64,000 nucleotides of DNA from Methylomusa anaerophila (lineage in GTDB: Bacteria; Bacillota; Negativicutes; Sporomusales; Sporomusaceae), in the NCBI RefSeq assembly GCF_003966895.1, contig NZ_AP018449.1, positions 2,807,501-2,871,500 on the forward strand, read 5' to 3'. The position numbers and the translations under genes are program-made. Numbering within the stretch: position 1 is the first letter of the stretch; each line of letters starts with the position of its first letter. This document shows positions 2,340 through 51,545 of this stretch, piece after piece. The notes beneath the pieces are model-generated. The model had not been told where the DNA came from, ran no database searches, and saw only the letters and a program-made list of their open reading frames with translations.

Positions 2340-2368
2340 TTGACAATTTATCGAATATTAAGTATGAT
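2340..2368 (+). promoter_or_regulatory. Sigma-A-type promoter of orphan leader copy 1
   Basis: TTGACA at 2340-2345, a 17-base spacer and TATGAT at 2363-2368. Transcription would start near 2376, about 35 bases before the conserved hairpin motif. The same layout (TTGACA, 16-18 bases, TATRAT, short leader, motif) is seen at 8170, 11249 and 50084. Confidence 0.65.
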
Positions 2369-2408
2369 AGTAAAAAAGACACATAAAAATGATCAATAAT
2401 ATGGGTGG

Positions 2409-2452
2409 TTGACCAGAAAAAAGCTGGAGACGATAGGTCTTTAGCTTTTTAT
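2409..2452 (+). promoter_or_regulatory. Recurrent hairpin-terminator leader motif, copy 1
   Basis: TTGA, then CCAG (2413-2416), an A-rich loop and CTGG (2424-2427), then AGAC. The alternative fold AAGCTGGAGAC (2421-2431) with GTCTTTAGCTT (2437-2447) followed by T residues is an intrinsic terminator that uses up the CTGG strand, so the two folds exclude each other. Eight further copies occur in the window. This one has no obvious downstream gene. Confidence 0.6.
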
Positions 2453-7972: not shown

Positions 7973-8169
7973 AGTTTTTCCCTCCTTATGAAAAAACAAC
8001 CAAAGCTGAGGTCCCCGCCGGCCTCAGTTTAGTTGATACCTCATCGTATAGCCCGTTACTTTCATTTTTCATACATTGTAATATGAAAACTTGCTCAAGT
8101 CAATATTGACCATGGCGCCCAAACCCTTCTCTGCGCAAGGGAAAAGCCGGCTTGAATATGCTACAGATA

Positions 8170-8198
8170 TTGACAAGTAATTGTGGTGGGTGTATGAT
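8170..8198 (+). promoter_or_regulatory. Sigma-A-type promoter of metNI-like operon
   Basis: TTGACA at 8170-8175, a 17-base spacer and TATGAT at 8193-8198; a TATAAT just downstream is too far from the -35 box. It precedes the first of two leader motifs, so the transcript would carry both attenuators. Confidence 0.65.
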
Positions 8199-8238
8199 GT
8201 ATAATAAGTGAGTAAGATTAGATGACTAAGATACATTG

Positions 8239-8308
8239 CTGACTAGTCGAGAGCTAGAGGCGGCATCCCATTGGCTGCATCCCATTATAATGGGATATAG
8301 TCTTTTTT
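8239..8308 (+). promoter_or_regulatory. Recurrent hairpin-terminator leader motif, copy 2
   Basis: CTGA followed by the hairpin CTAG (8243-8246)/CTAG (8254-8257), then AGGC leading into a longer stem (ATCCCAT with ATGGGAT) and the T-run TCTTTTTT. It matches the consensus YTGA-YYAG-loop-CTRR-AGGC. It is the first of two tandem copies before the metN-like gene. Confidence 0.6.
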
Positions 8309-8414
8309 GTTTGCTACCAACGGGCATCAAAGTATAGCTGTAGCCAAACAGGGCAATTCAATTATTAGTTTGAAATGCAGCAAGAAAATTCAATATCTTT
8401 GGTATTGTTCAAAG

Positions 8415-8487
8415 TTGACCAGAAATGCTGGAGGCTTGGTTTCTTAATCTATTGTCAAAGTAGATGCGGACCAGGCCTCCTTTATTT
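8415..8487 (+). promoter_or_regulatory. Recurrent hairpin-terminator leader motif, copy 3
   Basis: TTGA, CCAG (8419-8422), CTGG (8428-8431), then the terminator stem GGAGGCTTGGT (8430-8440) with ACCAGGCCTCC (8470-8480) and TTTATTT. The terminator stem shares two G residues with the small hairpin. It is the second tandem copy, about 100 bases before the metN-like start. Confidence 0.65.
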
Positions 8488-8587
8488 CATATTACTGATA
8501 AGCATGGTACATGCCTTGGCAACGGGAGTTTTCAGAGTGAGTAGCTTGCAGCCAGGAGCCAAAGGTAGAAAAGCGAGTTGAAAATTT

Positions 8588-9367
8588 TTGATATCTATTA
8601 AAAATTTAAACAAAACCTATGTTACGCCACATTCCAAAATAACGGCGTTAAGCAACATAAACCTGGAAATTGAGAAAGGTGATATTTTTGGCATTATCGG
8701 CTTTAGCGGGGCTGGCAAGTCAACGCTGATAAGATGTATAAACCGGCTGGAAGAGCCTGATTCCGGCACTATTCTTATTGAAGGGCAAGACATCACCGCC
8801 ATGAATAACACGCAGTTAAGACTGGCGAGAAGAAAAATCGGGATGATTTTTCAGCAGTTCAATTTGCTTGATGCCAAAACTGTATATCAGAATGTGGCCT
8901 TTCCCCTGGAAGTGTCCGGATATCCTAAGAAGCTGATTCACAGCAGAGTGGAGGAAATTCTTGAGTTAGTAGGATTAGCGGATAAGGCAAAGGCTTATCC
9001 GCTGCAGTTAAGCGGCGGTCAAAAGCAGAGGGTTGGTATTGCGCGGGCCCTTTCCAATGAGCCGAATGTCCTCTTAAGTGACGAAGCTACTTCCGCCCTT
9101 GACCCGCAAACAACGTATTCCATATTGGAACTGCTGAAAGATATAAATAAAAAGCTTGGTCTGACAATTGTTTTAATAACTCATGAGTTGGATGTGTTGA
9201 AACATATCTGCAATAACATGGCTGTTATTGAACAGGGAGAAATTGTTGAAAACGGGCCTGTTGAAAAATTTTTCCTGAACCCTGAGAGTGACACGGCTAA
9301 ACGGTTTATTGACATACTGCAGGGTTTTCAGGCAAAAAGGGTATACAGAGGAGGTGAAGGAATTTGA
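8588..9367 (+). CDS. MetN-type ABC transporter ATP-binding protein
   Basis: 259 residues with Walker [14 protein letters not shown], signature [15 protein letters not shown], Walker [13 protein letters not shown] and the switch histidine in LITHELDVL. The MetN subfamily resemblance is strong, but the C-terminal ligand-sensing (NIL) domain of methionine importers, which brings them to about 340 residues, is absent. The best start is a TTG at 8588 with only a weak ribosome site; an in-frame stop lies just upstream. The stop overlaps the permease start. The tandem leader motifs and an SsuA-like binding protein in the operon suggest uptake of an organosulfur compound; methionine is not assured. 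Confidence 0.8.
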
Positions 9368-10032
9368 ACGACGATTTGCTGGACCTGTTGCTGACCGGAC
9401 TCGGCGAAACTGTGTACATGGTAGTGTTCTCCACCGCCGTCGCCCTTGTGCTTGGACTTCCGCTGGGAATTATACTTGTGGTTACTGAAAAGGGATATGT
9501 GTTGGAAGCTCTTAAGTTTAATAAAATCCTTGGGACATTAATCAATGTGGTACGCTCCTTTCCTGACATTATACTCATTGTTGTTTTATTGCCTTTGGCA
9601 AGGTTCATTGTGGGGACAACATTAGGTTCCACAGCGGCCCTTGTGCCTCTGTCCATCGGCGCAGCGCCGTTCATCGCGAGAATTATCGAGAACTGCCTCA
9701 AAGAGGTTAGCTTTGGCAAGATTGAGGCAGCCATGGCTATCGGCGCCAATCCATTAACAATAATCACCAAAGTCCTTATCCCCGAGGCTCTGCCTTCTCT
9801 CATCCGGGGGATAACAATCGCGGTGATTGCGATTACCGGCATGACGGCGGTTGCCGGGGCGATCGGAGCCGGCGGCCTCGGCAGCCTCGCGATACGGTTT
9901 GGATACATGCGATTCAGAGACGATGTGATGCTAGCCACGGTCGTAACATTAATCATTCTTGTGCAAGGTGTGCAGTGGGGGGGAGATTATTTAGCCAAAT
10001 ACATTAATAGAAAAAGGTATAAGTTTGATTAA
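9364..10032 (+). CDS. MetI-type ABC transporter permease
   Basis: 222 residues with five to six membrane spans and the MetI/BPD_transp_1 coupling-loop region ([20 protein letters not shown], followed by [15 protein letters not shown]). Length and pattern match the MetI half-transporter that dimerises in the inner membrane. The TTG start at 9364 overlaps the upstream stop (TTGA) and has GGAGGTGAAGG ahead of it. It works with the MetN-like ATPase and the downstream lipoprotein. The binding protein is not of the usual MetQ/NlpA type, so the substrate may differ from methionine. Confidence 0.85.
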
Positions 10033-10096
10033 GCTTGCTAACGGAGGGGAATAAAGAAGATTTATGGAAAAGCAAAATTTTTGGTGGATTTGTATA

Positions 10097-11170
10097 ATGA
10101 AAAAAAGGATTTTTATAATGTCACTTGCGGCTGTCATTATGTTTATGCTCCTGGCGGCGGCAGGATGCGGCAAATCTTCAGTAACTAAGGATGCTGCCGG
10201 CGAAGCTGATAAACCTAAATTTGTTAACGGCAAGCTTACCAAGGAATTTCATCTTAAAGTCGCAACTTTTCAAAGCTATAATGAGTTTACCATCGCCGAC
10301 AAACTGGGCTTTTTCAAGGAAGTGGGGATTATCCCGGAATATACCGGCGTGATCAATACGCCGGCATTGGCAGTGCAGGCAGTAATTAAAGGCAACAATC
10401 ATCTATTGGCTTTGGGACATCCCATGGATATTGCGGCGGCCAGGCTGGCGGGAGCTAAGATCAAGATTGTGCTTCACAGCATGGTAGATGATCCTGATCC
10501 GGATAAAATGCATATAACATGGCTAACGAAGAGTGACAGTCCAATTAATTCTCCCCAGGATATCGTTGGTAAAAAGATAGCCCTCAACGGCACTTCCGGT
10601 TGTGCAGGACTAATATTTGATGAATTTTTACGCCAGAACAATATTCCCAAAGATAAACTTACTATTGTGGTAATGCCGGATAAGCAGCAGGAACAGGCTC
10701 TGAAACAGGGACAAATCGATGTGGCGGCGCTGCACAATGTTTATACAAAAGCCACCAGAAACACAGGCGGCGTGAAAGTACTTACCACCAGCTACAAGAT
10801 CAATGAAGTCAACGGCGGCGGCCCGCTGGGCGGTCTGGCCGTCAGATCCTTCAGTGAAGACTTTATCAAGGAATATCCTGATGTTGTCAAAGCCTATATT
10901 GCTGCCGATTTGAAGGCGCAGCACTGGATTATGAACCACTATGATGAATCACTGAAGATTATGGCAGACTTCTTACAGGTGGATGTCAAGGATGTAGCGG
11001 GAAATGTCTATCCCAATCAGTGGTGGATTCAGGATAATGATATTAATTACTGGATTAAACTGGGGGAGCAGAATGGATGGTATAAACCCGGGGAAGTAAG
11101 TCCCAAAGATCTGTACACAAATGATCTCAATCCCTATTATACGAAGGAGATTCCTATTCCTGCAAATTAA
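10097..11170 (+). CDS. SsuA/NMT1-like solute-binding lipoprotein
   Basis: About 357 residues. An MKKR n-region, hydrophobic core and lipobox-like LLAAAGC indicate a lipoprotein. The mature part resembles SsuA/TauA/NMT1 binding proteins: ADKLGFFKEVGIIPEYTG, DIVGKKIALNGTSGCAG, IDVAALHN and a C-terminal KLGEQNGWY helix. Such proteins bind sulfonates, taurine or nitrate-like anions. Its pairing with a MetNI-type ATPase and permease rather than SsuBC is unusual. An ATG at 10064 with GGAGGGG 14 bases ahead is an alternative start; 10097 gives a more typical signal and has GGTGG at good spacing. Confidence 0.8.
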   Translation: MKKRIFIMSLAAVIMFMLLAAAGCGKSSVTKDAAGEADKPKFVNGKLTKEFHLKVATFQSYNEFTIADKLGFFKEVGIIPEYTGVINTPALAVQAVIKGNNHLLALGHPMDIAAARLAGAKIKIVLHSMVDDPDPDKMHITWLTKSDSPINSPQDIVGKKIALNGTSGCAGLIFDEFLRQNNIPKDKLTIVVMPDKQQEQALKQGQIDVAALHNVYTKATRNTGGVKVLTTSYKINEVNGGGPLGGLAVRSFSEDFIKEYPDVVKAYIAADLKAQHWIMNHYDESLKIMADFLQVDVKDVAGNVYPNQWWIQDNDINYWIKLGEQNGWYKPGEVSPKDLYTNDLNPYYTKEIPIPAN

Positions 11171-11248
11171 AAGATCAACGATATTGTTTTGAAGGCTGAT
11201 TGTTAATAATACCGCTGTATCTTATATATTAAGTATATTAAGAGTATA

Positions 11249-11276
11249 TTGACAAATCGGCAACATGAAGTATAAT
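11249..11276 (+). promoter_or_regulatory. Sigma-A-type promoter before leader copy 4
   Basis: TTGACA at 11249-11254, a 16-base spacer and TATAAT at 11271-11276, about 35 bases before the conserved YTGA of copy 4. Confidence 0.65.
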
Positions 11277-11308
11277 AAAATACAATACATATTGAATATA
11301 TTATTGGG

Positions 11309-11366
11309 CTGATCAGAAAAACTGAAGGCTAAGTTCTCTTTCGATGCACCAACTTTAGCCTGTTTT
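11309..11366 (+). promoter_or_regulatory. Recurrent hairpin-terminator leader motif, copy 4
   Basis: CTGA, TCAG (11313-11316), AAAAA loop, CTGA (11322-11325), then AGGCTAAGTT pairing with AACTTTAGCCT (one bulge) and TGTTTTA. It fits the family consensus, with the hairpin pair TCAG/CTGA in place of CCAG/CTGG. Confidence 0.6.
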
Positions 11367-11441
11367 ACGCGTTTCTTTGACAGGTATTCTTTGCCTGAGG
11401 GTTACGGAAATAGTAACCAAATAAATGAATAACGGATTTGA

Positions 11442-11512
11442 CTGGTCAGTAATATACTGAAGGCAAAGAAATTTCCTGGATTTCTTGACACAGGGATTGA
11501 TCTTTGCCTTTT
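11442..11512 (+). promoter_or_regulatory. Recurrent hairpin-terminator leader motif, copy 5 (variant)
   Basis: CTGG instead of YTGA, then TCAG (11446-11449), loop, CTGA (11457-11460), then the perfect 10-base-pair stem AAGGCAAAGA with TCTTTGCCTT (11501-11510) and T residues. It is the only copy deviating in the 5' YTGA. No gene follows directly. Confidence 0.5.
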
Positions 11513-11703
11513 GAATTTATAACACCAGGCGAATATCCGTTCATATTACCCGTTCCCCATGAAAGAATTATCATGCTGACAGGGGGAAAGATAGAAAAAA
11601 TACCTTGACAAGTGCAAGAAGCTATGAAATTATAAATGTAATTAATTCCGGATTGTATCATAATAATGAAGTGAACTCGTTTAGCCTTTGCTAAACTTCG
11701 GGG

Positions 11704-11770
11704 CTTCGGTGGGGGACTCTACCCCCACCGAAGTTTGGAAGTGGTAACACCCACTTATAGAAGTGGGTGT
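11704..11770. repeat. Double GC-rich hairpin element, possible IS200/IS605-type remnant
   Basis: Two strong stems in tandem: CTTCGGTGGGGG (11704-11715) with CCCCCACCGAAG (11722-11733), then ACACCCACTT (11747-11756) with AAGTGGGTGT (11761-11770). Neither is followed by a T-run. Such hairpin pairs resemble ends of IS200/IS605 elements, but no transposase remnant is visible, so the assignment is tentative. Confidence 0.4.
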
Positions 11771-11811
11771 CTTCGAAATTGGATAATATTAAATATTAAT
11801 ATTAAATTTAG

Positions 11812-11875
11812 CTGATCAGATAACTGAAGGCTAAGGAACTTTTTCGCAGATAGTTCCTTAGCCTTTTTATTTTGG
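11812..11875 (+). promoter_or_regulatory. Recurrent hairpin-terminator leader motif, copy 6 (yezD-like gene)
   Basis: CTGA, TCAG (11816-11819), ATAA loop, CTGA (11824-11827), then a perfect 14-base-pair terminator AAGGCTAAGGAACT (11827-11840) with AGTTCCTTAGCCTT (11852-11865) and TTTATTTT. It lies directly before the ribosome site of the double YezD-like gene. Confidence 0.7.
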
Positions 11876-11886
11876 AGGTGTAAGGT

Positions 11887-12240
11887 GTGGGGAAAATAGC
11901 TCGCCCAAAAATTCTGCCGCCGCAAGTCATGGAATTGATTGGACATGCACTTCATACGGTCCAGTACGGATACCTGATCTTGACAGTTCAGGATGGATGC
12001 GTAATTCGAATGGAAAAAACGGAAAAATATGTGTTTTCCTCCAAAAACAAAGCTGGATATGTTAAGCGGAATGTGCCGGTGGGGGAACACTTGTTACAGT
12101 CCAAAATTATTGCCGAGTTGCAAGGATTGATGTATGGCCAGTTGATTATTCATTTAGAAGACGGCAAGGTAGGACTGATAGAAAAAACTGAGAAGCGACG
12201 CATCAATGAGTATGAAGGGATTAATGGGGACGGTATATAA
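11887..12240 (+). CDS. Duplicated YezD-like (DUF2292) small protein
   Basis: 117 residues from a GTG preceded by GGAGGTGTAAG. It contains two similar units: about residues 15-50 (LTVQDGCVIRMEKTEKYVF) and 75-108 (LIIHLEDGKVGLIEKTEKRRI), each like the single ~55-residue YezD/DUF2292 protein found beside sulfur genes in Firmicutes. The biochemical role of the family is not known to me. It has its own leader motif (11812-11875) and precedes the sulfate importer. The C terminus NGDGI is identical to that of the second small YezD-like protein at 45508-45681, which suggests the tail matters. Confidence 0.7.
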   Translation: MGKIARPKILPPQVMELIGHALHTVQYGYLILTVQDGCVIRMEKTEKYVFSSKNKAGYVKRNVPVGEHLLQSKIIAELQGLMYGQLIIHLEDGKVGLIEKTEKRRINEYEGINGDGI

Positions 12241-12277
12241 AGGTATATAAAAAATTACCCTAAAAAATTTATCTCCA

Positions 12278-12305
12278 TTGCCAATTGCCAATTGACAATT
12301 GGCAA
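12278..12305. repeat. Inverted repeat TTGCCAATTG/CAATTGGCAA
   Basis: TTGCCAATTG (12278-12287) and CAATTGGCAA (12296-12305) form a 10-base-pair palindrome, with an extra CCAATTG unit between the arms. It may be a protein-binding site or a dispersed small repeat between the yezD-like gene and the sbp leader. Confidence 0.4.
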
Positions 12306-12385
12306 AATGCAATTTAAAATAAAATAAACCAAGCGGCTAAGCGGCTGAAATGTAATAGTGTTAAACACAGATATTAACGAGTTTA

Positions 12386-12439
12386 CCGACCAGATAACTG
12401 GAGGTTGACCATTTTACATGGTTAGCCTCTTTTATTTTT
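12386..12439 (+). promoter_or_regulatory. Recurrent hairpin-terminator leader motif, copy 7 (sbp operon)
   Basis: CCGA, CCAG (12390-12393), ATAA loop, CTGG (12398-12401), then the terminator stem GAGGTTGACCAT (12401-12412) with ATGGTTAGCCTC (12418-12429) and TTTTATTTTT. It lies about 100 bases before sbp, positioned to control the whole sulfate import and reduction operon. Confidence 0.7.
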
Positions 12440-12537
12440 GCTTAAATTGGCCGATACTGTTTCGAAGCTAAAGGTGAACCATAATGATAATAATGGCTGA
12501 CCTTTCGTGAAGTTCAACAAAAAAGGAGAGAGTGGTT

Positions 12538-13617
12538 ATGTACATGTTAAAGCGAAGACTTAAAACAGGCACACCGAAATTAATTTTGCTGATAGTTGTG
12601 CTGTCGCTGATCGCAGTCACCTTAACAGGCTGCGGAGCGAAACAGGAAACTTCCGCCGAGAAAGGTAAAGCGGCCGAACCGGTAAAATTACTTAACGTTT
12701 CTTATGATCCGACGCGTGAATTGTACAAGGAATTCAATGAATCTTTTGCTGATTATTGGAAAAACAAAACAGGTCAAACCGTTACCATACAACAATCCCA
12801 CGGCGGGTCGGGCGCACAGGCGCGTACGGTGCGCGAGGGAATTGAGGCTGATGTTGTGACCTTAGCTTTAGCTTATGACATCGACGAACTGGCTACGGCG
12901 GGACTTATCCCGGCAGACTGGCAAAAACGTTTAGCCAACAACTCGACGCCATATACATCTACCATTGTATTTCTCGTCCGCAAGGGCAACCCCAAGAATA
13001 TCAAGGACTGGGACGATTTAGTCAAGCCTGGCGTGTCGGTCATCACGCCCAACCCTAAAACATCCGGCGGCGCCCGGTGGAATCATCTCGCGGCCTGGGG
13101 TTATGCCTTGAAGAAAAATGGCAACAATGAAGCCCAGGCCAAAGAATTTATTGCCAAGCTGTATCAAAATGTACCGGTACTGGATTCCGGCGCCCGGGGC
13201 GCAACAACTACATTTGTGGAGCGGGGCATCGGTGATGTGCTCCTGGCTTGGGAAAATGAGGCCCTGCTGGCGGAAAAAGAGCTGGGTAAAGACAAATTTG
13301 AGATCGTTGTGCCTTCCATCAGTATTTTGGCCGAGCCTCCTGTTACGATAGTCGACAAAATTGTTGATAAAAAAGGAACCCGGGAAGTGGCCCAGGCCTA
13401 TCTGGAATATCTCTATACCGATAAGGGGCAGGAACTGGCGGCCAAGCATTTCTACCGGCCGCGTTCAGAAGCAATTGCCCAGAAATATGCCAGTCAGTTT
13501 CCTAAAGTCAGTCTGATCACCATAGCAGATCTTGGGGGCTGGACCGAGGCCCAAACCAAACACTTTAAAGACGGCGGTATTTTTGACCAAATTTATACGC
13601 CGAAGGCCAAACAGTAG
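12538..13617 (+). CDS. sbp: Sulfate/thiosulfate-binding protein
   Basis: About 359 residues. A basic n-region, hydrophobic core and lipobox-like LTGC indicate a lipoprotein. Family motifs are clear: [72 protein letters not shown] and [20 protein letters not shown]. It captures sulfate outside the inner membrane for the CysTWA importer encoded just downstream. ATG at 12538 was chosen because AAGGAG lies about 9 bases ahead. A strong hairpin lies in the 180-base gap to cysT and may set the relative level of the binding protein. Confidence 0.95.
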
Positions 13618-13729
13618 AAAGGACGTGCTTTTTCAGCAACAGCGCCGGGTACTGCCAAGTTTAAACAGCACAATATAATTAACTTAAAGGTAGCTACTGA
13701 TAAGCATAGCGAAATGACTGTATGCAACG

Positions 13730-13763
13730 GCGCCTCTGCTCGATTTAGAGCCCGTAGAGGCGC
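13730..13763 (+). terminator. Intraoperonic hairpin between sbp and cysT
   Basis: GCGCCTCT (13730-13737) pairs with AGAGGCGC (13756-13763), followed by TCTTTGT. It could be a leaky terminator or an mRNA-stabilising stem that favours the binding protein over the permeases. Confidence 0.5.
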
Positions 13764-13799
13764 TCTTTGTCTGAGTGAAATACAAAGTGAGGAATAATT

Positions 13800-14645
13800 A
13801 TGGCCATCAAGTCCTTATCCTTTAAGAAGCACAGTATCTTACCCGGTTTTGGCCTTACCATGGGGTTCACCATGATGTATCTGGGTCTGCTGGTCTTGCT
13901 TCCCCTGTCCACGATTATTATTAAAACAGCCGGGATAGGCTGGTCACAGTTATGGGATATTGTTACGGCGCCCAGATTGGTTGCCTCTTACAAATTGAGC
14001 TTTGGGGCATCGTTGATTGCGGCTCTTATTAATGCAGTTTTCGGGCTATTGGTAGCGTGGGTATTGGTTCGCTACACGTTTCCCGGCAAGCGGATTATAG
14101 ATGGGCTGGTCGATCTGCCGTTTGCGTTGCCGACGGCTGTTGCCGGCATTACCCTCACAACCCTCTACGCTCCCAATGGATGGATTGGCAAGTATTTGTC
14201 GCTTATTGGGGTGAAGGGCGCATACTCGCCTTTGGGGGTAGTTATCGCCTTAACCTTTATCGGTTTGCCTTTTGTCGTACGAATGGTTCAACCGGTTCTG
14301 CAGACTTTAGACAGGGAGGTGGAGGAAGCGGCTGCCAGCCTGGGGGCAACCCGCTTCCAAGCCTTCACGAAAGTCATCCTGCCTGAATTATTTCCCGCTT
14401 TATTGACCGGTTTCGCCCTGGCGTTTGCGCGGGCGTTGGGGGAATATGGCTCGGTTGTTTTCATTTCCGGCAATATGCCGATGCAAACAGAAATAACTCC
14501 TCTTCTGATTATGACCAAACTGGAACAATTTGACTATGCCGGTGCCAGCGCCATTGCGGCCGTAATGTTGATCGCCTCTTTTGTACTGCTGTTTTTAATT
14601 AATCTTTTACAGTGGTGGCAGAGCCACCGGCATCAGGAAATTTGA
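13800..14645 (+). CDS. cysT: Sulfate ABC transporter permease CysT
   Basis: 281 residues, six membrane spans, typical of CysT/CysU. Family features: an AWVLVRYTFPGKRIIDGLVD loop, DLPFALPTAVAGITL and the coupling loop EEAAASLGATRFQAFTKVIL. It forms the inner-membrane sulfate channel with CysW and is driven by CysA. Fourteen bases separate it from cysW, and the gene order sbp-cysT-cysW-cysA is canonical. Confidence 0.95.
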   Translation: MAIKSLSFKKHSILPGFGLTMGFTMMYLGLLVLLPLSTIIIKTAGIGWSQLWDIVTAPRLVASYKLSFGASLIAALINAVFGLLVAWVLVRYTFPGKRIIDGLVDLPFALPTAVAGITLTTLYAPNGWIGKYLSLIGVKGAYSPLGVVIALTFIGLPFVVRMVQPVLQTLDREVEEAAASLGATRFQAFTKVILPELFPALLTGFALAFARALGEYGSVVFISGNMPMQTEITPLLIMTKLEQFDYAGASAIAAVMLIASFVLLFLINLLQWWQSHRHQEI

Positions 14646-14659
14646 GGAGGTGAGTCGAA

Positions 14660-15547
14660 ATGGCTGGAAGTGTTACCCTGCGGCGGGGGATGGAGCCGGA
14701 ACAAGAGAATTCTAGAATGATAACAGAACGGCCGGCTGTTCGCTGGATATTGACCGGCTTGGCTCTTGGCTATCTTGGATTGATGCTGATCATACCCCTT
14801 ATTGCCGTCTTTGCGAAAGCTTTTGAACGAGGTATTGAACTGTATATCAACGCCATCGTTTCCGCTGATGCCTTGTCCGCAATTTACCTGACTTTGTTAA
14901 CAGTCGCAATTGCAGTGCCGATGAATACGGTTTTCGGTTTAGCCGCAGCCTGGGCTATCGCTAAATTCGAATTTAAAGGAAAAAATTTCCTTATAACACT
15001 GATTGATCTGCCTTTTGCTATCTCACCTGTCATCGCGGGTTTGATATTCGTGTTTCTTTTCGGTAAACCGGGAATCTTTGGCCCTCTACTGGCAGCCCAT
15101 GATATAAAAATTATCTTTGCCGTTCCCGGCATAGTCCTGGCTACCGTTTTTGTCACGTTTCCCTTTGTTGCCCGTGAACTGATCCCGCTGATGGAGTCCC
15201 AGGGGACAGCTGAGGAAGAAGCGGCTTTGACTCTTGGCGCCAATGGGTGGAAAACTTTTTGGCGGGTTACTTTGCCGAATATCAAGTGGGGATTAATCTA
15301 CGGGGTGATTTTGACCAGCGCCAGGGCTGTTGGAGAATTCGGCGCGGTATCGGTTGTTTCCGGCCATATCCGCGGGTTTACCAATACTCTGCCGCTGCAT
15401 GTGGAGATTTTGTACAACGAGTACCAGTTTACAGCAGCTTTCGCCGTTGCGTCCTTGATGACGCTCATGGCGGTTGTCACCCTGGTGGTAAAGAATATCG
15501 TCGAGTGGAAAGTACAGCAGCAGGGTCAAGCGGCTGAACTCGAATGA
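14660..15547 (+). CDS. cysW: Sulfate ABC transporter permease CysW
   Basis: 295 residues with six membrane spans. Motifs include [20 protein letters not shown], the coupling loop [20 protein letters not shown] and [19 protein letters not shown], a CysW hallmark. GAGGAGGTG precedes the ATG at 14660. Residues 1-25 before the first membrane span are longer than in some homologues, so an internal ATG at 14717 is possible but lacks as good a ribosome site. Confidence 0.95.
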
Positions 15548-15569
15548 AATTAAAAGGGGCAGTACAGTT

Positions 15570-16643
15570 ATGAGTATTCAGATCGTCAATGTCAGTAAAC
15601 AGTTTGGCGCCTTTACGGCGTTAAAAGATATTAATCTGACGGTCCCCACCGGCGAACTTGTGGCTCTCCTGGGTCCTTCCGGTTCGGGGAAAACCACTTT
15701 GTTACGCATCATCGCCGGTTTGGAAACGGCGGATCAGGGGACCATCCTCTTTAACGGCGAGGATACCAGCAATACCAATGTTCAACAAAGACGGGTAGGA
15801 TTTGTATTTCAGCACTATGCGCTGTTCCGGCACATGACTGTCTCGGAAAATATCGCTTTCGGGCTAAACGTCCGGCCGCGCAGTCTTCGGCCTTCGAAAA
15901 AGGAAATTCAGGAAAGAGTCTATGAACTTTTAAGCCTGGTAAAGCTGGAGGGGTTAGCCAACCGCTATCCTGCCCAACTCTCGGGAGGGCAACGGCAAAG
16001 GGTGGCGTTAGCCCGGGCCCTTGCCGTTCAGCCGCAGATGCTGTTGCTGGACGAACCTTTTGGGGCATTGGATGCCAAAGTCCGTAAGGAACTGAGGCGA
16101 TGGCTGCGGCAGCTCCATGATGAATTGCACATCACCAGCGTTTTCGTTACCCATGACCAGGAAGAAGCCCTGGACGTAGCGGATCGCATTGTAATACTGA
16201 ACAAAGGTCAGATCGAACAGCTCGGCACGCCGGAGGAAGTTTATGAACATCCTAAGAATCCGTTCGTATACGATTTCCTGGGAAATGTGAACCTTTTTCA
16301 AGGCCGCATTCATAAAGGCAGAGTTACTATCGGCTGCATTGAACTGGATGCGCCTGAATATGCCCACACTTTGGACACTCAGGCAGTAAGCTTTGTTCGC
16401 CCTTATAATATCGAAATAGAACGGGAACCCCAAGGGCAGGAATTTATCCCGGCGCGCATTCTTTTTATCCGCGCAGTCGGCCCGGTTGTTCACCTGGAAT
16501 TAAAAAGGGAGGATACCGGCGAACTGGTTGAGGTGGAATTGGGCAAAGAACGGTTTGGACAGCTCAATCTGAAAGCCGGTGAAAATGTATTTGTTAAACC
16601 CAAGGACTTAAAAATCTTTATTCCCGAAGATTATGTGATCTAA
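15570..16643 (+). CDS. cysA: Sulfate ABC transporter ATP-binding protein CysA
   Basis: 357 residues. Walker [16 protein letters not shown]-loop [14 protein letters not shown], signature [15 protein letters not shown], Walker [12 protein letters not shown] and switch [11 protein letters not shown] are intact. The C-terminal ~110 residues form the regulatory TOBE-like domain usual for CysA ([12 protein letters not shown]). It energises CysTW. It is followed after 37 bases by the APS reductase genes, so import and reduction appear to be co-transcribed. Confidence 0.96.
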
Positions 16644-16680: not shown

Positions 16681-18384
16681 TTGTGTGAATTGATGAGATT
16701 GGAAGATAAACAACTGGAAACAGATATTCTCATAATTGGCGGCGGGACGGCCGGATGCTTTGCGGCGCTCACAGCCACAGAAAACTCTGATGCCAAGGTG
16801 ATTATCGCCGAGAAGGCCAACATCAAGCGCAGCGGCTGTCTTGCGGCCGGGGTTAATGCCCTTAACGCGTATATTGTGAAAGGTCAGACCCCGGAAACAT
16901 ACCTCGAATATGTTAAAAACGATTCCGAAGGCTTAATACGGGAGGACCTGGTCTATACCATGGCCCAGCGGTTGAACAAGGTGACTGAGAAGATTGAGAG
17001 CCTGGGTTTGGTCATCCAGAAGGACGCCCAGGGAGAGTATGTGTCCAGGGGCACAAGAAACATCAAGATTAACGGCGAGAACATCAAACCCATCCTGGCC
17101 GAAACTGTATTAAAGAGTCCGAATATTACCGTGTTGAACCGGGTCAATATGATTGACTATATAATACAAGACGGAAAAGTTGCCGGCGCCTACGGGTTTT
17201 CTTTAGACACCAATACTTTTTACGTTATAGCCGCCAAGGCGGTAATCTGCGCTACCGGCGGGGCGGCAGGTCTTTATAGACCCAATAATCCCGGGTTCTC
17301 CCGCCATAAAATGTGGTATTGTCCGTTCAATACCGGGGCCGGATATGCAATGGGAATCAGAGCGGGAGCGGAAATGACCACATTTGAAATGCGGTTTATC
17401 GCCTTGCGGTGCAAAGATACCATAGCCCCCACCGGGACTATTGCCCAAGGGGTGGGGGCGCAGCAGATCAACAGCCGCGGTGAGGAATACGAGAAGAATT
17501 ACGGCCTTCCCAAAACTCCCAACCGGGTATTCTCCACAGTTGAGGAAAACAGAAATGGCCGGGGGCCCTGTTATTTAAAAACAACGGGCATCACCGAAGA
17601 ACAGCAGCAAGAGCTTTACAAAGCTTATCTGAATATGGCGCCAGCTCAGACGCTTAAATGGTTTGAAGCGGGAAAAGGTCCCGCCGGGCAAAACGTAGAG
17701 ATTGAAGGAACCGAACCTTATATTGTCGGGGGCCATACCGCCAGCGGCTACTGGGTGGATACCGGCAGGGCCACTACCCTGGCAGGCCTTTATGCAGCCG
17801 GGGATGTGGCCGGCGGCAGTCCGCAGAAATATGTTACCGGCTGCTTCGCGGAAGGAGAAATCGCGGCATATTCTGCGTTGGAGTATGTAAAAGGAAAAAG
17901 CAATATATGGCCGGAAAACGATCAAATTGCCGCGAAGCTGGCAGCCGTTAACGGATTCTTGCAAGGTAGGCCCGGACGGTACGATGAGGAAGATATTGAA
18001 GAGGCTATGCAAAAAACAATGGATGATTACGCCGGCGGAATTTCCTCCGGTTACGTCTACAATTCGAAAAAGCTTCAGGTCGCCAAGGCTCGGGTGGATG
18101 AGCTGCTCCCTATGTGTCAGGATCTTAAAGCCGACAGTCTTCATCAACTGATGCACATTTATGAAGTGATAGACCGGCTCTACGTTTGCCGGGTGCTTAT
18201 TCATCATCTGGAAGCGCGGCGGGAAACCAGGTGGCATTCTTTTCAGGAAAATGCCGATTATCCGCAGCGGGATGATGCCAACTGGTTATGGTATGTAAAT
18301 TCGCGGCTTATCGAGGGACAAGTAAAGATTGTCAGGCGAGAATTAGTTAAAAAGGATGAGGTCTATGAGCATAGTAATCAATAA
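16681..18384 (+). CDS. aprA: Adenylylsulfate reductase alpha subunit (flavoprotein)
   Basis: 567 residues, close to the AprA/fumarate-reductase flavoprotein family. An FAD-binding ILIIGGGTAGCFAAL is at about residues 17-31, AEKANIKRSGCLAAGVNALN follows, then GGAAGLYRPNNPG, and GLYAAGDVAGGSPQKYVTGC closes the FAD site. It reduces APS to sulfite and AMP with AprB. Located between the sulfate importer and ATP sulfurylase with no dissimilatory dsrAB or qmo genes in the window, it most likely serves assimilation. The start is uncertain: TTG at 16681 follows GGGAGG, while ATG at 16693 gives MRLEDKQ. It overlaps aprB by 20 bases. Confidence 0.88.
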   Translation: MCELMRLEDKQLETDILIIGGGTAGCFAALTATENSDAKVIIAEKANIKRSGCLAAGVNALNAYIVKGQTPETYLEYVKNDSEGLIREDLVYTMAQRLNKVTEKIESLGLVIQKDAQGEYVSRGTRNIKINGENIKPILAETVLKSPNITVLNRVNMIDYIIQDGKVAGAYGFSLDTNTFYVIAAKAVICATGGAAGLYRPNNPGFSRHKMWYCPFNTGAGYAMGIRAGAEMTTFEMRFIALRCKDTIAPTGTIAQGVGAQQINSRGEEYEKNYGLPKTPNRVFSTVEENRNGRGPCYLKTTGITEEQQQELYKAYLNMAPAQTLKWFEAGKGPAGQNVEIEGTEPYIVGGHTASGYWVDTGRATTLAGLYAAGDVAGGSPQKYVTGCFAEGEIAAYSALEYVKGKSNIWPENDQIAAKLAAVNGFLQGRPGRYDEEDIEEAMQKTMDDYAGGISSGYVYNSKKLQVAKARVDELLPMCQDLKADSLHQLMHIYEVIDRLYVCRVLIHHLEARRETRWHSFQENADYPQRDDANWLWYVNSRLIEGQVKIVRRELVKKDEVYEHSNQ

Positions 18385-23518: not shown

Positions 23519-26500
23519 ATGCTTTGCCTGCGAACCAATAATCAAACCACCACCCAACGGCGCCAAAGCCTAAAAAAATGGCTGATCTGGCTCACCGCCA
23601 TCCTGCAGCTGTGCCAGCCAACCCTGGCCGGCGCCAGCGCCATCGTCGACAAAAGCGCGCCGGGAAGCAACCGGCCCTACGTAGAATTCACCGCCAACGG
23701 CCTGCCAGTCGTGCAAATCACCACCCCGTCAGCGGCCGGCGTATCCCGCAACATCTTTCAGCAATTCGACGTCTTTTCCCAGGGACTCATCCTAAACAAC
23801 TCCCGCGACATAGTAAGTACCCAACTGGCCGGCTATATCGCCGGCAACCCTTTTCTCCTCAAAGGATCAGCCCGAATTATCTTAAGCGAAGTCAGCGGGC
23901 CCCAAGCCAGCCATCTGAACGGCTATACCGAAATCGCCGGCCAAAAAGCCGAATTCATTCTGGCCAACCCTAACGGCATCTTTGTAAATGGAGCCGGTTT
24001 TATCAACACCAGCCACGCCACCCTCACCACCGGCGCCCCGGTATTCGGCGGCGACGGCAGCCTAAGCGCCTTCCGGGTAAGCGGCGGCCAAATCAGCATA
24101 GACGGCGCCGGACTCAACGGCGGCGACACCGACCGGGTGGACCTCATCAGCCGGGCGGTAACCGCCAATGCCGGTATCTGGACCAACGAACTCAACGTCG
24201 TCACCGGTGCCAATGAAGTAAAATATAACTCGTTAACCGCAGCCAACATTACCCCTGACAGCAACAAACCCGCCGTAGCCATAGACGTAGGCGCCTTAGG
24301 CGGCATGTACGCCAACAAAATCTACCTTGTCGGCACCGAACAAGGGGTAGGGGTGAACAGCCAGGGAATAATTTCGGCAATCACCGGCGACCTAACCGTC
24401 ACCGGTGAAGGCAAAGTCACCCTTGCCGGCAACACAACCGCCGGGGAAAATATCTATATTTCCGCGCAAGGCGGCCTCGATACCCAGGACCTAGTATACG
24501 CCGCAAAAAGCGCCAACCTTACCACCCCGGCCGGACTCACCAACGCCGGACTCATCGCCGCCGGAGAGCACACCACCCTTACCGCAGCTGCCGTTGACTC
24601 AACCGGCACAATCGGCGCCGGCATAAATAGCGACGGAACCATCGCCCCAAACGGCGACATCAACATCACAACAACCGGCAGCACAAAAGCCGGCGGGCAG
24701 AACACAGCCGCCGGTAATCTAACCATTCGGGCCGCAGCCGTCGACCTAAGCGGCGCCAACACCTACGCCGGTCAAAACATAAACCTCACAGCCCGGACGG
24801 GGGACATTGCCAACACCGGCGGGACAATACAAGCCATGGGCAGCCTTAACGCCAAAGCTAACGGAACACTCAGCAACGACCAAAACCCCGTCGGGACCAA
24901 AGGACAGCTCCAGGCCGACCAAATCACCATAACCGCCGGATCCGTCAGCAACATGGGCGGCGTAATCAGCCAAACCGGAACAAAAACCACCCTGATAACA
25001 GCTCAAGGCACGATCAACAACTCCCGGGGAGAAATTGGGACTCACGGCGACAAACTGACAATAGAGGCCGCAGAACTAAATAACACTACAGGGAAAATCA
25101 TCCATGCCGGTGGACAAGAATTAACCATCCGGACAAGCGGCGACACGATAAACACCAGCGGACAAATCGGCGCCAACGGCGCCAACCTGACAATCGAAGC
25201 TCAAAACCTCATCAACACCAAAGGGTCAATCGTCCATGCCGGCGCCCAAAACCTAACACTCAAGACGGCAGGAGACACCCTCAACACCGGGGGACAAATT
25301 GACACAAACGGACAACTTACCCTCACCGCCCAAAACCTTGACAACTCCAGCGGCCAAATCAACAGCCAAAAAGACATGGACATCCGCCTCGGTTCCGGTC
25401 TAATCAATGAAACCGGTGTCATTCGCGGCGGCAGCGCGGTAAAAATAGCGGCTGCCGACACCGTCCACAACCGGCGGGGAACCATCGAGGCCGGCCAGGG
25501 ACTGAATATAAGAGCCCGATCCCTGCAAAATGAAAACGGTCGGGTGGCCAACCTGGATAGCGGCCTGTTGACCATCACCGTCCGTCAGGACATCAACAAT
25601 CAAGGCGGCCAAATCGGTAGCAACGGAAAGGCCGAGCTCACAGCCAATACAGTCAACAATCAAAGCGGCACCCTCACCGCCCAAAACAACCTAACCATCC
25701 GGGTAGGGGCAAAACTGGACAGTAATGAGGCCAGCACCATCGCCGCCGGCGGCGACCTGACCATCAACAGCGGCGGCGCCATCAACCTGGCCGGCTCAAC
25801 CACCGCCAATCAAAACATCACCCTCACCGCCCAAGGCGACATTCATAACCAAGGTACCGTCTACGCCGGCCGAGATGCAACCCTTGCCGCCCAAGGCGCC
25901 CTCACCAATACCGGCACCCTTGCCGCCCAAAACAACATAACCATCAATGTAGGGGAAAGACTGGACAGTAATGAGGCCAGCACCATCGCTGCCGGCGGCG
26001 CCCTTGCCATCAACAGCGGCGGCGTCATCAACCTGGCCGGCGCGACCACCGCCAATCAAAACATCACCCTCGCCGCCCAAGGCGATATAAATAACCAAGG
26101 TACCGTCTATGCCGGCCAAGATGCTGCCATTGGCGCCGGCGGCGCCCTCACCAATACCGGCGCCATCACCGCCGGCGGCAACACCGGCATTACGGCCAAC
26201 ACCGTATCCTCCAGCGGTACCCTTGGGGCAGGCGTTACCCGTGAAGGTAAACTTGGCGGCAGTGGCAATCTCACGGTGGTTGCCCAAGACACCCTCACCG
26301 CCACCGGCCAAAACCTAGCCGCCGGCAATATGCTCCTGCAAGGAACAGCTATTAACCTGACCGGGGCCGTGAACCAGGCAGGAGGCAGTGCCGCCCTTCG
26401 CGCCACAACAGGAGACATCACCCATACGGGCGCAAGCCTGGATGTGGGCGACAAGCTTGACATCAGCGCTGCCAAGACCTTTAATAATGACAAAAATGCC

Positions 26501-29500
26501 GGGGGAACCGCCGGACAAATCCAGGCGGGTCAAGTAACCATCACCGCCGCCAACATAGCCAACCGAGGCGGCAGCATCCTGCAGATCGGCAGCGAAGAAG
26601 CCGCCATAACCGCAGCCCATACCCTCGACAACAGCGGCGGTAAAATTGCCGCCAATGGCGCCGCCAAGATAAAAGTCGGCGAACTTATCAACCAGGGAGG
26701 CAGCATCCAAACCTCCGGGCTTGATAATAACAATCTGGTCCTTGATGCCCGCGGCAGCATCAACAACAGCCTATATAACGGACAGGCGGGAATCATCAGT
26801 GCCGGCGGCAGCACAACCATAACCGCCGACAGCCTCAACAACAGCCAGGGACAAATTACCGCCGGTCAAACCTTAAGCGCAACAGTTACCCAAGACATCA
26901 CCAATACGCAAGGACTACTGGCGGCCAACCAAAACGCCGCCGTCAGCGCCGGCCGGATCCACAACACCCAGGGCACCATCGCCGCCGTACAGGGGCAAGC
27001 CGACGTCACCGCGGCCACCGGTATTCTTGATAACACGGCAGGGCGGGTGGAAGCCCAAAAGGAAACCCGCATCTTCGCCATTGGCTTAAACAACACAGAA
27101 GGTGTCATCCTCGGCGGCAGCCTGGACGTCAACACCAATAACCAACGGACTGACAACACGCGCGGCAGTATCGCCGCCGCCGGCCCGGCCACCATCCGCA
27201 GCGGCATCTTTATCAACGAAGCCGGCCTGGTTCAGGCAGCAGGCGATCTCATCCTCGACACCGGCGGGCAAACCCTTGCCAACACCAATTCCGGCGCCAC
27301 CGGCGGTATCATTGGCCGCGGCAGCGTCAACCTGCTCACCGGCAGCCTTACCAACCAGGCCGGCTACATTTACGGCGAAAATACACTTACAGTAAAAAGC
27401 GCCGACATCAACAATAGCCAGGGCGGTCTGCTGACCAGCGCCGGGGCAATGGACATCACCGCCGCCTCGCTAAACAACCAGGGCGGACAAATCCAGGCGG
27501 GTCAAGTAACCATAACCGCCGCCGACATAGCCAACCGAGGCGGCAGCATCCTGCAGACCGGCAGCGAAGAAGCCGCCATAACCGCAGCCCATACCCTCGA
27601 CAACAGCGGCGGCAAGATTGCCGCCAATGGCGCCGCCAAGATAAAAGTCGGCGAACTTATCAACCAGGGAGGCAGCATCCAAACCTCCGGGCTTGATAAT
27701 AACAATCTGGTCCTTGATGCCCGCGGCAGCATCAACAACAGCCTATATAACGGACAGGCGGGAATCATCAGTGCCGGCGGCAGCACAACCATAACCGCCG
27801 ACAGCCTCAACAACAGCCAGGGACAAATTACCGCCGGTCAAACCTTAAGCGCAACGGTTACCCAAGACATCACCAATACGCAAGGACTACTGGCGGCCAA
27901 CCAAAACGTCGCCGTCAGCGCCGGCCGGATCCACAACACCCAGGGTACCATCGCCGCCGTACAGGGGCAAGCCGACGTCACCGCAACCACCGGTATTCTT
28001 GATAACACGGCAGGGCGGGTGGAAGCCCAAAAGGAAACCCGCATCTTCGCCATTGGCTTAAACAACACAGAAGGTGTCATCCTCGGCGGCAGCCTGGACG
28101 TCAACACCAATAACCAACGGACTGACAACACGCGCGGCAGTATCGCCGCCGCCGGCCCGGCCACCATCCGCAGCGGCATCTTTATCAACGAAGCCGGCCT
28201 GGTTCAGGCAGCAGGCGATCTCATCCTCGACACCGGCGGGCAAACCCTTGCCAACACCAATTCCGGCGCCACCGGCGGTATCATTGGCCGCGGCAGCGTC
28301 AACCTGCTCACCGGCAGCCTTACCAACCAGGCCGGCTACATTTACGGCGAAAATACACTTACAGTAAAAAGCGCCGACATCAACAATAGCCAGGGCGGTC
28401 TGCTGACCAGCGCCGGGGCAATGGACATCACCGCCGCCTCGCTAAACAACCAGGGCGGACAAATCCAGGCCCTGGGCAATGTAGGCATCCAACTCGGCGG
28501 CACATTCCGCAATGCGCAAAGCCTGGTGCGGGCCGGTCAAACCCTCACCATCCGCGCCGCCGCCATCGACAACACCAATACCCAGGAGACAAACCAGGGG
28601 ATCGAAGGCCGGTCGGTAAATCTTACCGCCGCCCAAATCGACAACAGCCAGGGCGCCATCCGGGCCAACGAAACCTTGACCCTGACCGGCAGCGGTCAGA
28701 TCAACAACAGCCAGGGCTTGGTCTCTGCCGGAAAAACCCTTACCCTGCAAGATGCCAACCTGGACAACAAGACCCTGCAGATCAACAACAGCGGCGGAAC
28801 ATTGATCGCCGGGCAGCAACTCAATATCAACAGCGCCGGCCTCACAGGCGACGGCAAAATCGTAAGCCAGGGCGATCTTACCATTAAACTCACCCAAGAC
28901 TATACCCACACCGGTGAACTGGAAGCCAACGGCGACCTCAAACTGGAAACCGCCGGCGCCTTCACCAACAAAACAGCCCTTCAAGCCGGGAACAGCCTTA
29001 CCGTCATCGCCGGCAGCATCGACAACACCGTAGACGGTCAAATCAGCGGCAAAAACACCGCCGTTGCCGCCGATACCCTTACCAACCGGGGACTCATTGA
29101 CGGCGGCACAACCCTGATCGAGGCAGGAACCCTCAACAATCTGGGAACCGGCCGTATCTACGGCGACCAACTGGCCATTGAGGCCAATACCCTCACCAAC
29201 GATGTGGAAAATGGCACGGCGCCCGCCATCGCCGCCCGCAATCGCCTGGATATAGGCGCCCAGACCCTTGTTAACCGGGAACACGCCCTCATCTACAGTG
29301 ACGGCGACATGGCTGTCGGGGGCAGCCTGGCGGCAGACAAAACAGCAACCGGCCAGGCAGCCGTAGTCAACAACAACAGCGCCACCATAGAAGCCCGGGG
29401 CAATCTCAGCCTCTTTAGCCATGAAATCAACAACACCAACGAACACTTCAGCACCGTCATAGAAAAAACCCAGGAACAACAAATGGAAGAATACCAAGGT

Positions 29501-45305: not shown

Positions 45306-45408
45306 CTCTTATCCAGAGTGGTCGAGGGACTGGCCCGATGACACCCGGCAACCGGCAGGCAACTGCAGTGGTGCTAATTCCAGCAGGAGAAATCCTGGCA
45401 GATAAGAG
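45306..45408 (+). ncRNA. SAM-I riboswitch
   Basis: P1 CTCTTATC (45306-45313) and GATAAGAG (45401-45408) enclose the SAM-I core: AGAGTGGTCGAGGGACTGGC, CCGATGACACCCGGCAACC, GGTGCTAATTCC. A terminator follows at 45422-45445 and then a small YezD-like gene. It should turn transcription off when SAM is abundant. Nearly identical to the metA copy at 22629-22731, so one is likely a duplicate of the other. Confidence 0.95.
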
Positions 45409-45507: not shown

Positions 45508-45681
45508 ATGATAAACAATCTTCATTCCATCCCTGAAGAACAAAAAACAACCGATTCCGATCCAGAGAAACCCAAATATAGTACGGAAGTGACTATCATA
45601 ATACGTGATGGACAAGTCATAAAATTTGACCAGAAGATTAGACTGCCTTCCGTAGAATGCACAAATGGTGACGGAATATAA
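45508..45681 (+). CDS. 57-residue YezD-like protein under SAM riboswitch control
   Basis: A short gene (MINNLHSIPEEQKTTDS...), with AGAAAGAGG upstream of its ATG. Residues 24-47 (YSTEVTIIIRDGQVIKFDQK followed by IRLP) match the C-terminal strand-rich half of YezD/DUF2292 proteins; the N-terminal half is not like the family. It ends in NGDGI, as does the duplicated YezD-like protein at 11887-12240. It is the only gene between a SAM-I riboswitch and the next leader motif, so SAM probably controls it. Role unknown; it is likely an accessory protein of sulfur metabolism. Confidence 0.6.
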   Translation: MINNLHSIPEEQKTTDSDPEKPKYSTEVTIIIRDGQVIKFDQKIRLPSVECTNGDGI

Positions 45682-45753
45682 GAAAAATATGTTTTTATGG
45701 TATTTATTTTTTAAATGTGGTATTATTAATTCTGAAAATAAAGTATTGAGCAA

Positions 45754-45810
45754 CTGATTAGAAAACTAAAGGCTAAAAGATTTTCTGTGCGGGAGTCTTT
45801 TAGTCTTTCC
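45754..45810 (+). promoter_or_regulatory. Recurrent hairpin-terminator leader motif, copy 8 (thiF-sir-tusA)
   Basis: CTGA, TTAG (45758-45761), AAAA loop, CTAA (45766-45769), then AAAGGCTAAAAGA (45768-45780) pairing with TCTTTTAGTCTTT (45796-45808). The 13-base-pair stem is followed by only a weak T-rich tail. Its position ~90 bases before the thiF start matches other copies. Any reading frame starting inside it is not the gene start. Confidence 0.65.
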
Positions 45811-50113: not shown

Positions 50114-50149
50114 TTTACATAGTACATATCCTGATAATTTAATATTTGG

Positions 50150-50213
50150 CTGATTAGATACACTAAAGGCCAAGGAATTGCTTCGTTGGTAATTCCCTGG
50201 TCTATTTATTTTT
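50150..50213 (+). promoter_or_regulatory. Recurrent hairpin-terminator leader motif, copy 9 (metY)
   Basis: CTGA, TTAG (50154-50157), loop, CTAA (50163-50166), then AGGCCAAGGAATT (50167-50179) pairing with AATTCCCTGGTCT (50191-50203) and a T-rich tail TATTTATTTTT. It ends about 45 bases before metY. Confidence 0.7.

Positions 50214-50240: not shown

Positions 50241-51545
<1,305 letters not shown>

Follow-up and report, generated by a model that had tools for sequence, protein, structure and literature searches.

Near its start, the 64,000-nucleotide stretch of the Methylomusa anaerophila genome analysed here (the window) carries a short leader whose RNA can fold in two ways, which raises the questions of whether it is an attenuator, what it controls and what might decide between the folds. 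A sequence-only reading had claimed that CTGG (2424-2427) pairs either with CCAG (2413-2416) in a small hairpin or inside an 11-base-pair terminator stem at 2421-2447, and both the sequence and the coordinates were correct: AAGCTGGAGAC (2421-2431) faces GTCTTTAGCTT (2437-2447) in 11 pairs, two of them G-U, and a terminator scan lengthened the stem to 14 pairs, which close a loop of 5 nt and are followed by a T-rich tail. ViennaRNA folding gave the terminator an energy of -16.9 kcal/mol and the alternative hairpin one of -8.5 kcal/mol, and because seven paired nucleotides within 2424-2431 are common to both folds, the two are mutually exclusive. The attenuator logic drawn from this arrangement is backed by sequence, energies and the comparative data given below, but the hairpin had been under-described, since a lower stem of 3 bp, GUU/GAC in copy 1, and a conserved GA/A internal loop had been missed, and copy 1 itself lacks a plausible downstream gene. 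No such gene was found on the + strand within 800 nt, hypF lying on the opposite strand, so copy 1 attenuates nothing visible. This orphan copy (2404-2450) has a promoter-like site, a leader and a terminator, and may be relict or serve as a short RNA to titrate the regulator.

The count of nine copies was reproduced by R3, a general covariance model for the leader built here, which, at E < 0.02, placed nine leaders in the window, every one on the + strand, the next match having an E of 0.45 (Table 1, where the first coordinate of each leader copy is its R3 site start). Six of the nine were in the R3 training set; the copies outside it are those at 8234, 45749 and 50145. When both states were folded for all nine copies, the computed terminator was more stable than the alternative hairpin in every case, and termination is therefore likely the default state of the window leaders. 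Clean overlap of the hairpin with the 5' arm of the terminator was obtained by folding in seven of the nine copies. At copy 8234 only inspection by eye showed the overlap, which has two mismatches, and the computed terminator structure was not a clean single hairpin; at copy 11304 several hairpins ran together in the terminator scan, and the stem of the terminator proper has 7 pairs. An A-C mismatch occurs in the lower stem of copies 11437 and 45749, and the alternative hairpin of the latter is barely stable (-0.4 kcal/mol). The whole CTGG lies inside the terminator in copy 1 only; the terminators of copies 8410, 11807 and 12381 include part of that arm, and in most copies it is chiefly the lower stem that the terminator overlaps, the upper 3' arm being taken partly or not at all.

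Table 1. Leaders and associated features in the window, with coordinates, strand and supporting evidence.
Feature	Coordinates	Strand	Evidence
Promoter-like site upstream of copy 1, TTGACA-17-TATGAT	2340..2368	+	Consensus scan only
Leader copy 1, antiterminator hairpin, orphan	2404..2435	+	R3 21.7 bits, E 0.0011; both folds computed
Copy 1 terminator, exclusive with hairpin	2418..2450	+	Terminator scan, folding
Leader copy 2, CUAG/CUAG upper stem; first of two preceding the ABC operon at 8588	8234..8265	+	R3 E 0.0011
Leader copy 3, terminator 8430-8480; precedes metN/metI/SsuA-like genes 8588-11170	8410..8439	+	R3, folding
Leader copy 4, upstream of DUF2292 gene; weak terminator, 7 pairs	11304..11333	+	R3 E 3.5e-7
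Leader copy 5, terminator 11460-11510; upstream of DUF2292 gene	11437..11468	+	R3, folding
Leader copy 6, terminator 11826-11866; immediately upstream of DUF2292 gene	11807..11835	+	R3, folding
DUF2292 (YezD/OscA-like) protein, two repeats	11887..12240	+	PF10055 54.2 bits, cut-off 22
Leader copy 7, terminator 12400-12430; between DUF2292 and sulfate-binding protein genes	12381..12409	+	R3 E 2.5e-6
Sulfate ABC transporter genes: substrate-binding protein, CysT, CysW, CysA	12532..16643	+	NCBIfam
aprA, after sulfate ABC transporter genes	16681..18384	+	NCBIfam
SAM riboswitch	45306..45408	+	RF00162 87.6 bits
57-aa protein, weak DUF2292-like hairpin, C-terminus NGDGI	45508..45681	+	Weak similarity, 12.7 bits
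Leader copy 8, terminator 45770-45806; upstream of MoeB/ThiF gene	45749..45777	+	R3, folding
Leader copy 9, terminator 50167-50203; upstream of O-acetylhomoserine sulfhydrylase 50259-51545	50145..50174	+	R3, folding

Two or three leaders stand in tandem before one gene in the window (8234/8410 and 11304/11437/11807) and at loci L009, L013, L066 and L148. Elsewhere in the window, a single open frame of 3587 codons spans 23519-34282.

The hairpin follows the plan NNN-GA-NNNN-loop-NNNN-A-NNN, with three base pairs in the lower stem, four in the upper and a GA/A internal loop between them. A first model was built on 19 copies from the window's own genome, and a second on A2, a set of 92 leaders from Negativicutes relatives, Bacillales, other Bacillota and Deltaproteobacteria MAGs, selected by a pattern that fixes most upper-stem letters and independently of DUF2292, the family of the YezD/OscA-like protein encoded in the window. 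In A2 the loop had 4-9 nt and 61 cells were changed on both sides of a pair against 29 when shuffled, none of 500 shuffles reaching as high and slid versions all scoring lower; the flanks (columns 1-4 with 31-34) were paired in about 40-60% of rows, with changes on both sides. Besides that of copy 1, lower-stem versions included GCU/GGC, GCC/GGC, ACC/GGU, AUU/GAU and GUC/GAC. Two search models were used in the genome surveys, R2 being narrower (UCAG-type upper stem) and R3 broader; leader-positive Bacilli numbered 19/250 by R2 and 100/250 by R3, the former an undercount because the DUF2292 flanks there carry other upper stems. Versions found near DUF2292 were CUAG/CUAG, CCGG/CCGG, UCGG/CCGA, CCAG/CUGG, CUGG/CCAG, UUAG/CUAA and others.

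Covariation counts in the A4 alignment are partly circular, since most of its rows were picked by a pairing descriptor, and a pairing-blind test was used instead. Placements were made beside DUF2292 without regard to pairing, and the upper arms proved to be Watson-Crick throughout in 86 of the 129. When partners were shuffled 2000 times, the mean was 9.9 and the highest count 20. The matching arms came in 12 combinations; three of the four upper pairs thus vary with pairing kept. The fourth, which closes the loop, was G-C in 85 of 87 A4 rows. Conservation extends further to GCY-GA and A-GGC, and ten of the 32 alignment columns are 90% conserved.

The specificity of this structure was assessed with descriptors. 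Combined with a terminator, the descriptor matched beside 76 of 174 DUF2292 loci (some redundant) versus none of 522 mononucleotide-shuffled stretches; without the terminator the figures were 96/174 and 14/522. Fifty control stretches of the window between 16 and 62 kb gave no match with the terminator and two without, and the strict descriptor plus terminator had no match in 1.62 Mb of mononucleotide-shuffled sequence. The simple pattern YCAGNNAACTGRAGRY matched six times in the window, which is not above chance (8 of 100 shuffles had as many), so significance rests on the family. A genome scan with the exact pattern yielded at least 119 stretches, many by chance, and 37 of those listed passed the terminator filter; in the comparison scan of viral contigs, no clear leader with terminator was seen among the matches listed (from about L224 on).

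What lies behind the leaders was surveyed in 141 downstream proteins (162 were found, two were filtered, 150 of the remaining 160 were taken and nine near-duplicate or doubtful entries were removed). They included 18 matches to sulfate-binding protein, 14 to cysteine synthase and 14 to CysH families and, by Pfam (among 25 of 69 families), NMT1 (SsuA-like, n = 10), NIL domain (n = 7), Cys/Met PLP enzymes (n = 6), uroporphyrinogen decarboxylase-like proteins (n = 5), FMN reductases (n = 5), luciferase-like monooxygenases (n = 4) and nitrogenase-like proteins (n = 3). This tally leans to sulfur because part of the loci were fetched around DUF2292; the 37 named loci, selected among the matches listed by pattern and terminator alone, had a similar sulfur trend by eye. 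For some of the genes downstream, e.g., those of a HAD hydrolase and an MFS transporter, a role in sulfur metabolism is not obvious. Nitrogenase-like genes stand behind leaders at L034, L055, L148, L014, L086, L558 and L561, with Oxidored_nitro (Pfam) in three A5 members and NifH-like starts seen by eye elsewhere; these may encode nitrogenase-like reductases for sulfur salvage and not nitrogen fixation.

The presence of the leader was compared with that of DUF2292 across three classes. In the Bacilli (class of Priestia abyssalis, n = 250), 97 genomes had both, three the leader only, seven DUF2292 only and 143 neither by R3, a table biased by the partial training of R3 on DUF2292 neighbourhoods from the same sample. 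The Clostridia (class of Pseudobutyrivibrio ruminis, n = 291), which contributed one R3 training sequence (L357), comprised 15 genomes with both, three with the leader only, seven with DUF2292 only and 266 with neither, about three false leader matches being expected at E 0.01; at least one of the leaders in the three genomes with no DUF2292 detected (L540) looks genuine. For the window's own class (n = 200), R2 gave 59 with both, three with the leader only, 20 with DUF2292 only and 118 with neither. Fisher p-values, which ignore kinship, were 1.8e-56, 2.7e-17 and 2.1e-29 for Bacilli, Clostridia and the own class, respectively. Of the own-class leader-only genomes, G010 has a completeness of 58%, and in the remaining two the leader match is weak (E 0.0015 and 0.0069). 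The 20 own-class DUF2292-only genomes belonged to families f18 (n = 17), f22 (n = 2) and f4 (n = 1); when the DUF2292 loci of 17 of them were searched with R3, four matched (L327, L436, L438 and L443, E 9e-6 to 0.003) and 13 did not.

Joint presence or absence was also found within own-class families: both were lacking in G013 and G027 and present in G020, G023, G025 and G026 of f3, lacking in G029 and G059 and present in G096 of f10, and lacking in G048 and present in G058 of f29. Named leader genomes, from among the matches listed with a terminator, had DUF2292 in all 26 tried (of 37 loci), Deltaproteobacteria MAGs included, whereas their controls had it in 6/14, three of those six carrying the leader by R3 (G228, G229 and the Shewanella locus L371). 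The oscA locus of Pseudomonas caspiana (L364) gave no R3 match. Two or more DUF2292 matches were commoner in Bacilli with an R2 leader and DUF2292 (9/17 vs 3/87). At L433-L447, in the own class and mostly in f18, 12 of 15 loci have DUF2292 genes without a leader, a useful exception for asking what DUF2292 does without this RNA.

The two-repeat window protein exceeds the curated cut-off of the PF10055 profile and falls below that of the OscA equivalog NF033785 (28.4 bits vs 85). An AlphaFold model of the tandem protein, based on four sequences, was modest (pLDDT 70, pTM 0.61) and predicted, with modest confidence, two alpha-beta-beta units. A PDB fold search with this model found nothing below E 0.1 (best E 0.11), and a PDB sequence search gave chance matches only (best E 0.53), with no solved sequence relative. 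The C-termini of open frames with DUF2292 matches included 37 GDGI and 22 GEGI. The 57-aa open frame at 45508-45681 resembles a truncated DUF2292, ends in NGDGI as does the protein encoded at 11887, and stands in the order SAM riboswitch, 57-aa DUF2292-like protein, leader, MoeB/ThiF gene.

The two elements were also often adjacent. R3 matched in 66 of 90 fetched Bacilli DUF2292 loci, with the leader usually 5-60 nt past the DUF2292 stop codon and in some loci (e.g., L406, L427 and L430) upstream of the gene; 16 of 25 loci in the Clostridia search had an R3 match at E up to 0.05, and an earlier R2 test had placed a leader within about 1.5 kb in 13 of 30 own-class DUF2292 loci. Of 33 Bacilli DUF2292 loci tested, 14 had a SAM riboswitch, which lies upstream and on the same strand as read from coordinates, and a common Bacilli order is SAM riboswitch, DUF2292, leader and sulfur genes. 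In the window, leaders stand both before and after the DUF2292 gene. A position ahead of the attenuator is better suited to a regulator gene than to a target gene. At L357, of Pseudobutyrivibrio ruminis, DUF2292 is followed by a leader with a terminator-like hairpin and then by a metK-like gene (by eye). Between oscA and a sulfate-binding gene of Shewanella PS-2 (L371:1663-1691) lies a hairpin whose arms are CCGG, with AGC as the lower arm, after which no T run was seen and where a purine-rich site precedes the start codon; translational control is possible at this one locus.

We think it quite probable that the family traced here by its sequence, with its structure, terminator overlap, many sulfur targets and linkage to DUF2292, acts ahead of genes for sulfur acquisition and assimilation as a transcription attenuator, the antiterminator of which is stabilised by DUF2292 made at low SAM. 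RNA binding by DUF2292, which we infer from linkage and co-occurrence, would go with a presumed direction of control and a presumed signal. The nascent RNA would fold the terminator by default and transcription would stop; the hairpin, which would borrow the 5' arm of the terminator as its own 3' arm, would block termination once stabilised. The likeliest stabiliser would be the small DUF2292 protein, probably recognising the conserved GCY-GA...A-GGC internal-loop region, with the variable upper stem as a clamp. In the Bacilli where a SAM riboswitch precedes the DUF2292 gene, the cascade would run from low SAM to synthesis of DUF2292, and from there to antitermination of the genes downstream and, in trans, of other leaders.

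Other readers of the hairpin have to be weighed against DUF2292. The sequence-only reading had hinted at a small-molecule ligand, and the element could be a very small riboswitch that itself binds a sulfur metabolite (e.g., O-acetylserine, cysteine or sulfide), DUF2292 being just a frequent regulon member or partner. The many sulfur targets, the terminator overlap, the conserved GCYGA/AGGC core and the nearly constant loop-closing G-C pair would all suit such a switch, but ten 90%-conserved columns, with a loop and three of four upper pairs that vary, leave little for an aptamer. The nearly one-to-one co-occurrence with DUF2292 in Bacilli and the position of the leader there, mostly after the gene, also speak against it. 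A ligand is not favoured because loop and most upper-stem letters vary and because the element is linked in genomes to a protein gene, and we regard the riboswitch as unlikely.

We see an equally small chance that another RNA-binding protein reads the leader and that DUF2292 is co-regulated with it, having some other job in sulfur starvation. DUF2292 is a family of unknown function, its model has no fold match to RNA-binding proteins, and the co-occurrence tables have exceptions on both sides, but a second gene of the same distribution would be required, and leader and DUF2292 come and go together within own-class families f3, f10 and f29. Protein recognition could also take place on DNA, the commonest leader version of the window's own genome holding a palindrome, CTGATCAG, that might be an operator beside an ordinary terminator. 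Other versions (GACCAG/CTGG, GACCGG/CCGG, GACTAG/CTAG and GATCGG/CCGA) lose the palindrome and keep the hairpin pairing, and the terminator that follows shares the 3' arm of the element; we reject the operator as very improbable because the arms change.

Antitermination by DUF2292 would have parallels among known systems. The RAT of BglG/LicT/SacY is an imperfect hairpin overlapping a terminator, and its stabilisation by protein gives readthrough. The leader hairpin resembles it in being short and imperfectly paired around a small internal loop and in sharing its 3' part with the 5' arm of the terminator, and differs in RNA sequence, in having sulfur and not sugar targets, and in the proposed regulator, DUF2292 instead of a CAT-domain plus PRD protein. 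With PyrR it shares a hairpin that controls a terminator and is bound by protein, as is proposed for this leader; PyrR acts in the opposite direction and on pyrimidine genes, and the Rfam PyrR site (RF00515) had no match in the stretches scanned. The S-box SAM-I riboswitch controls sulfur genes by termination; it (RF00162) is a separate element that the nine leaders do not match, though it stands upstream of DUF2292 in the Bacilli loci noted above. Rfam 15 left the leaders unmatched across the whole window at gathering score, where only two SAM riboswitches were found elsewhere, and in 8100-12700 at E up to 5; nor was a leader matched in 13 and seven other loci (E up to 1) or in 20 loci at gathering score.

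In the accessible text of an RNA-seq study of Bacillus methanolicus, '(SAM)-(PyrR)' is marked ahead of ssuA1, metN1 and MFS genes (PMC4342826), and these sites are possibly the present motif under another label. Naville and Gautheret (2010) predicted an antiterminator/terminator 'ABC-leader' ahead of an alkanesulfonate ABC operon in bacilli, and a second element ahead of a sulfonate ABC operon plus an unknown gene (PMC2965389). The 'ABC-leader', likened here by description and not by alignment, may be the same element; neither a regulator nor a wide regulon is proposed in the accessible part of that paper. For OscA of Pseudomonas, a small protein, the available text places the gene in one transcriptional unit with a sulfate-binding gene (PMC3596284), and the title of a 2009 OscA paper names the sulphur starvation response. 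An RNA role is absent from the partial descriptions of OscA/YezD found, and the window protein differs from these in its two repeats. The literature within reach, which left out supplements, preprints and most subscription papers, yielded no link between DUF2292 and RNA and no description of the leader motif.

On balance, we believe that DUF2292 (YezD/OscA) is probably a new family of RNA-binding antiterminators that act through this hairpin to command a sulfur-starvation regulon in Bacillota and also in Deltaproteobacteria MAGs, possibly by translational control in Shewanella, and that are switched on by a SAM riboswitch in many Bacilli. With a protein of ~60 residues and an RNA of ~30 nt, the model is directly testable. 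If true, it would assign a function to this widespread family of proteins, would explain the termination control that coordinates sulfate, sulfonate, methionine and cysteine genes in many Bacillota, and would add one more RNA-binding family to the few known attenuation regulators.
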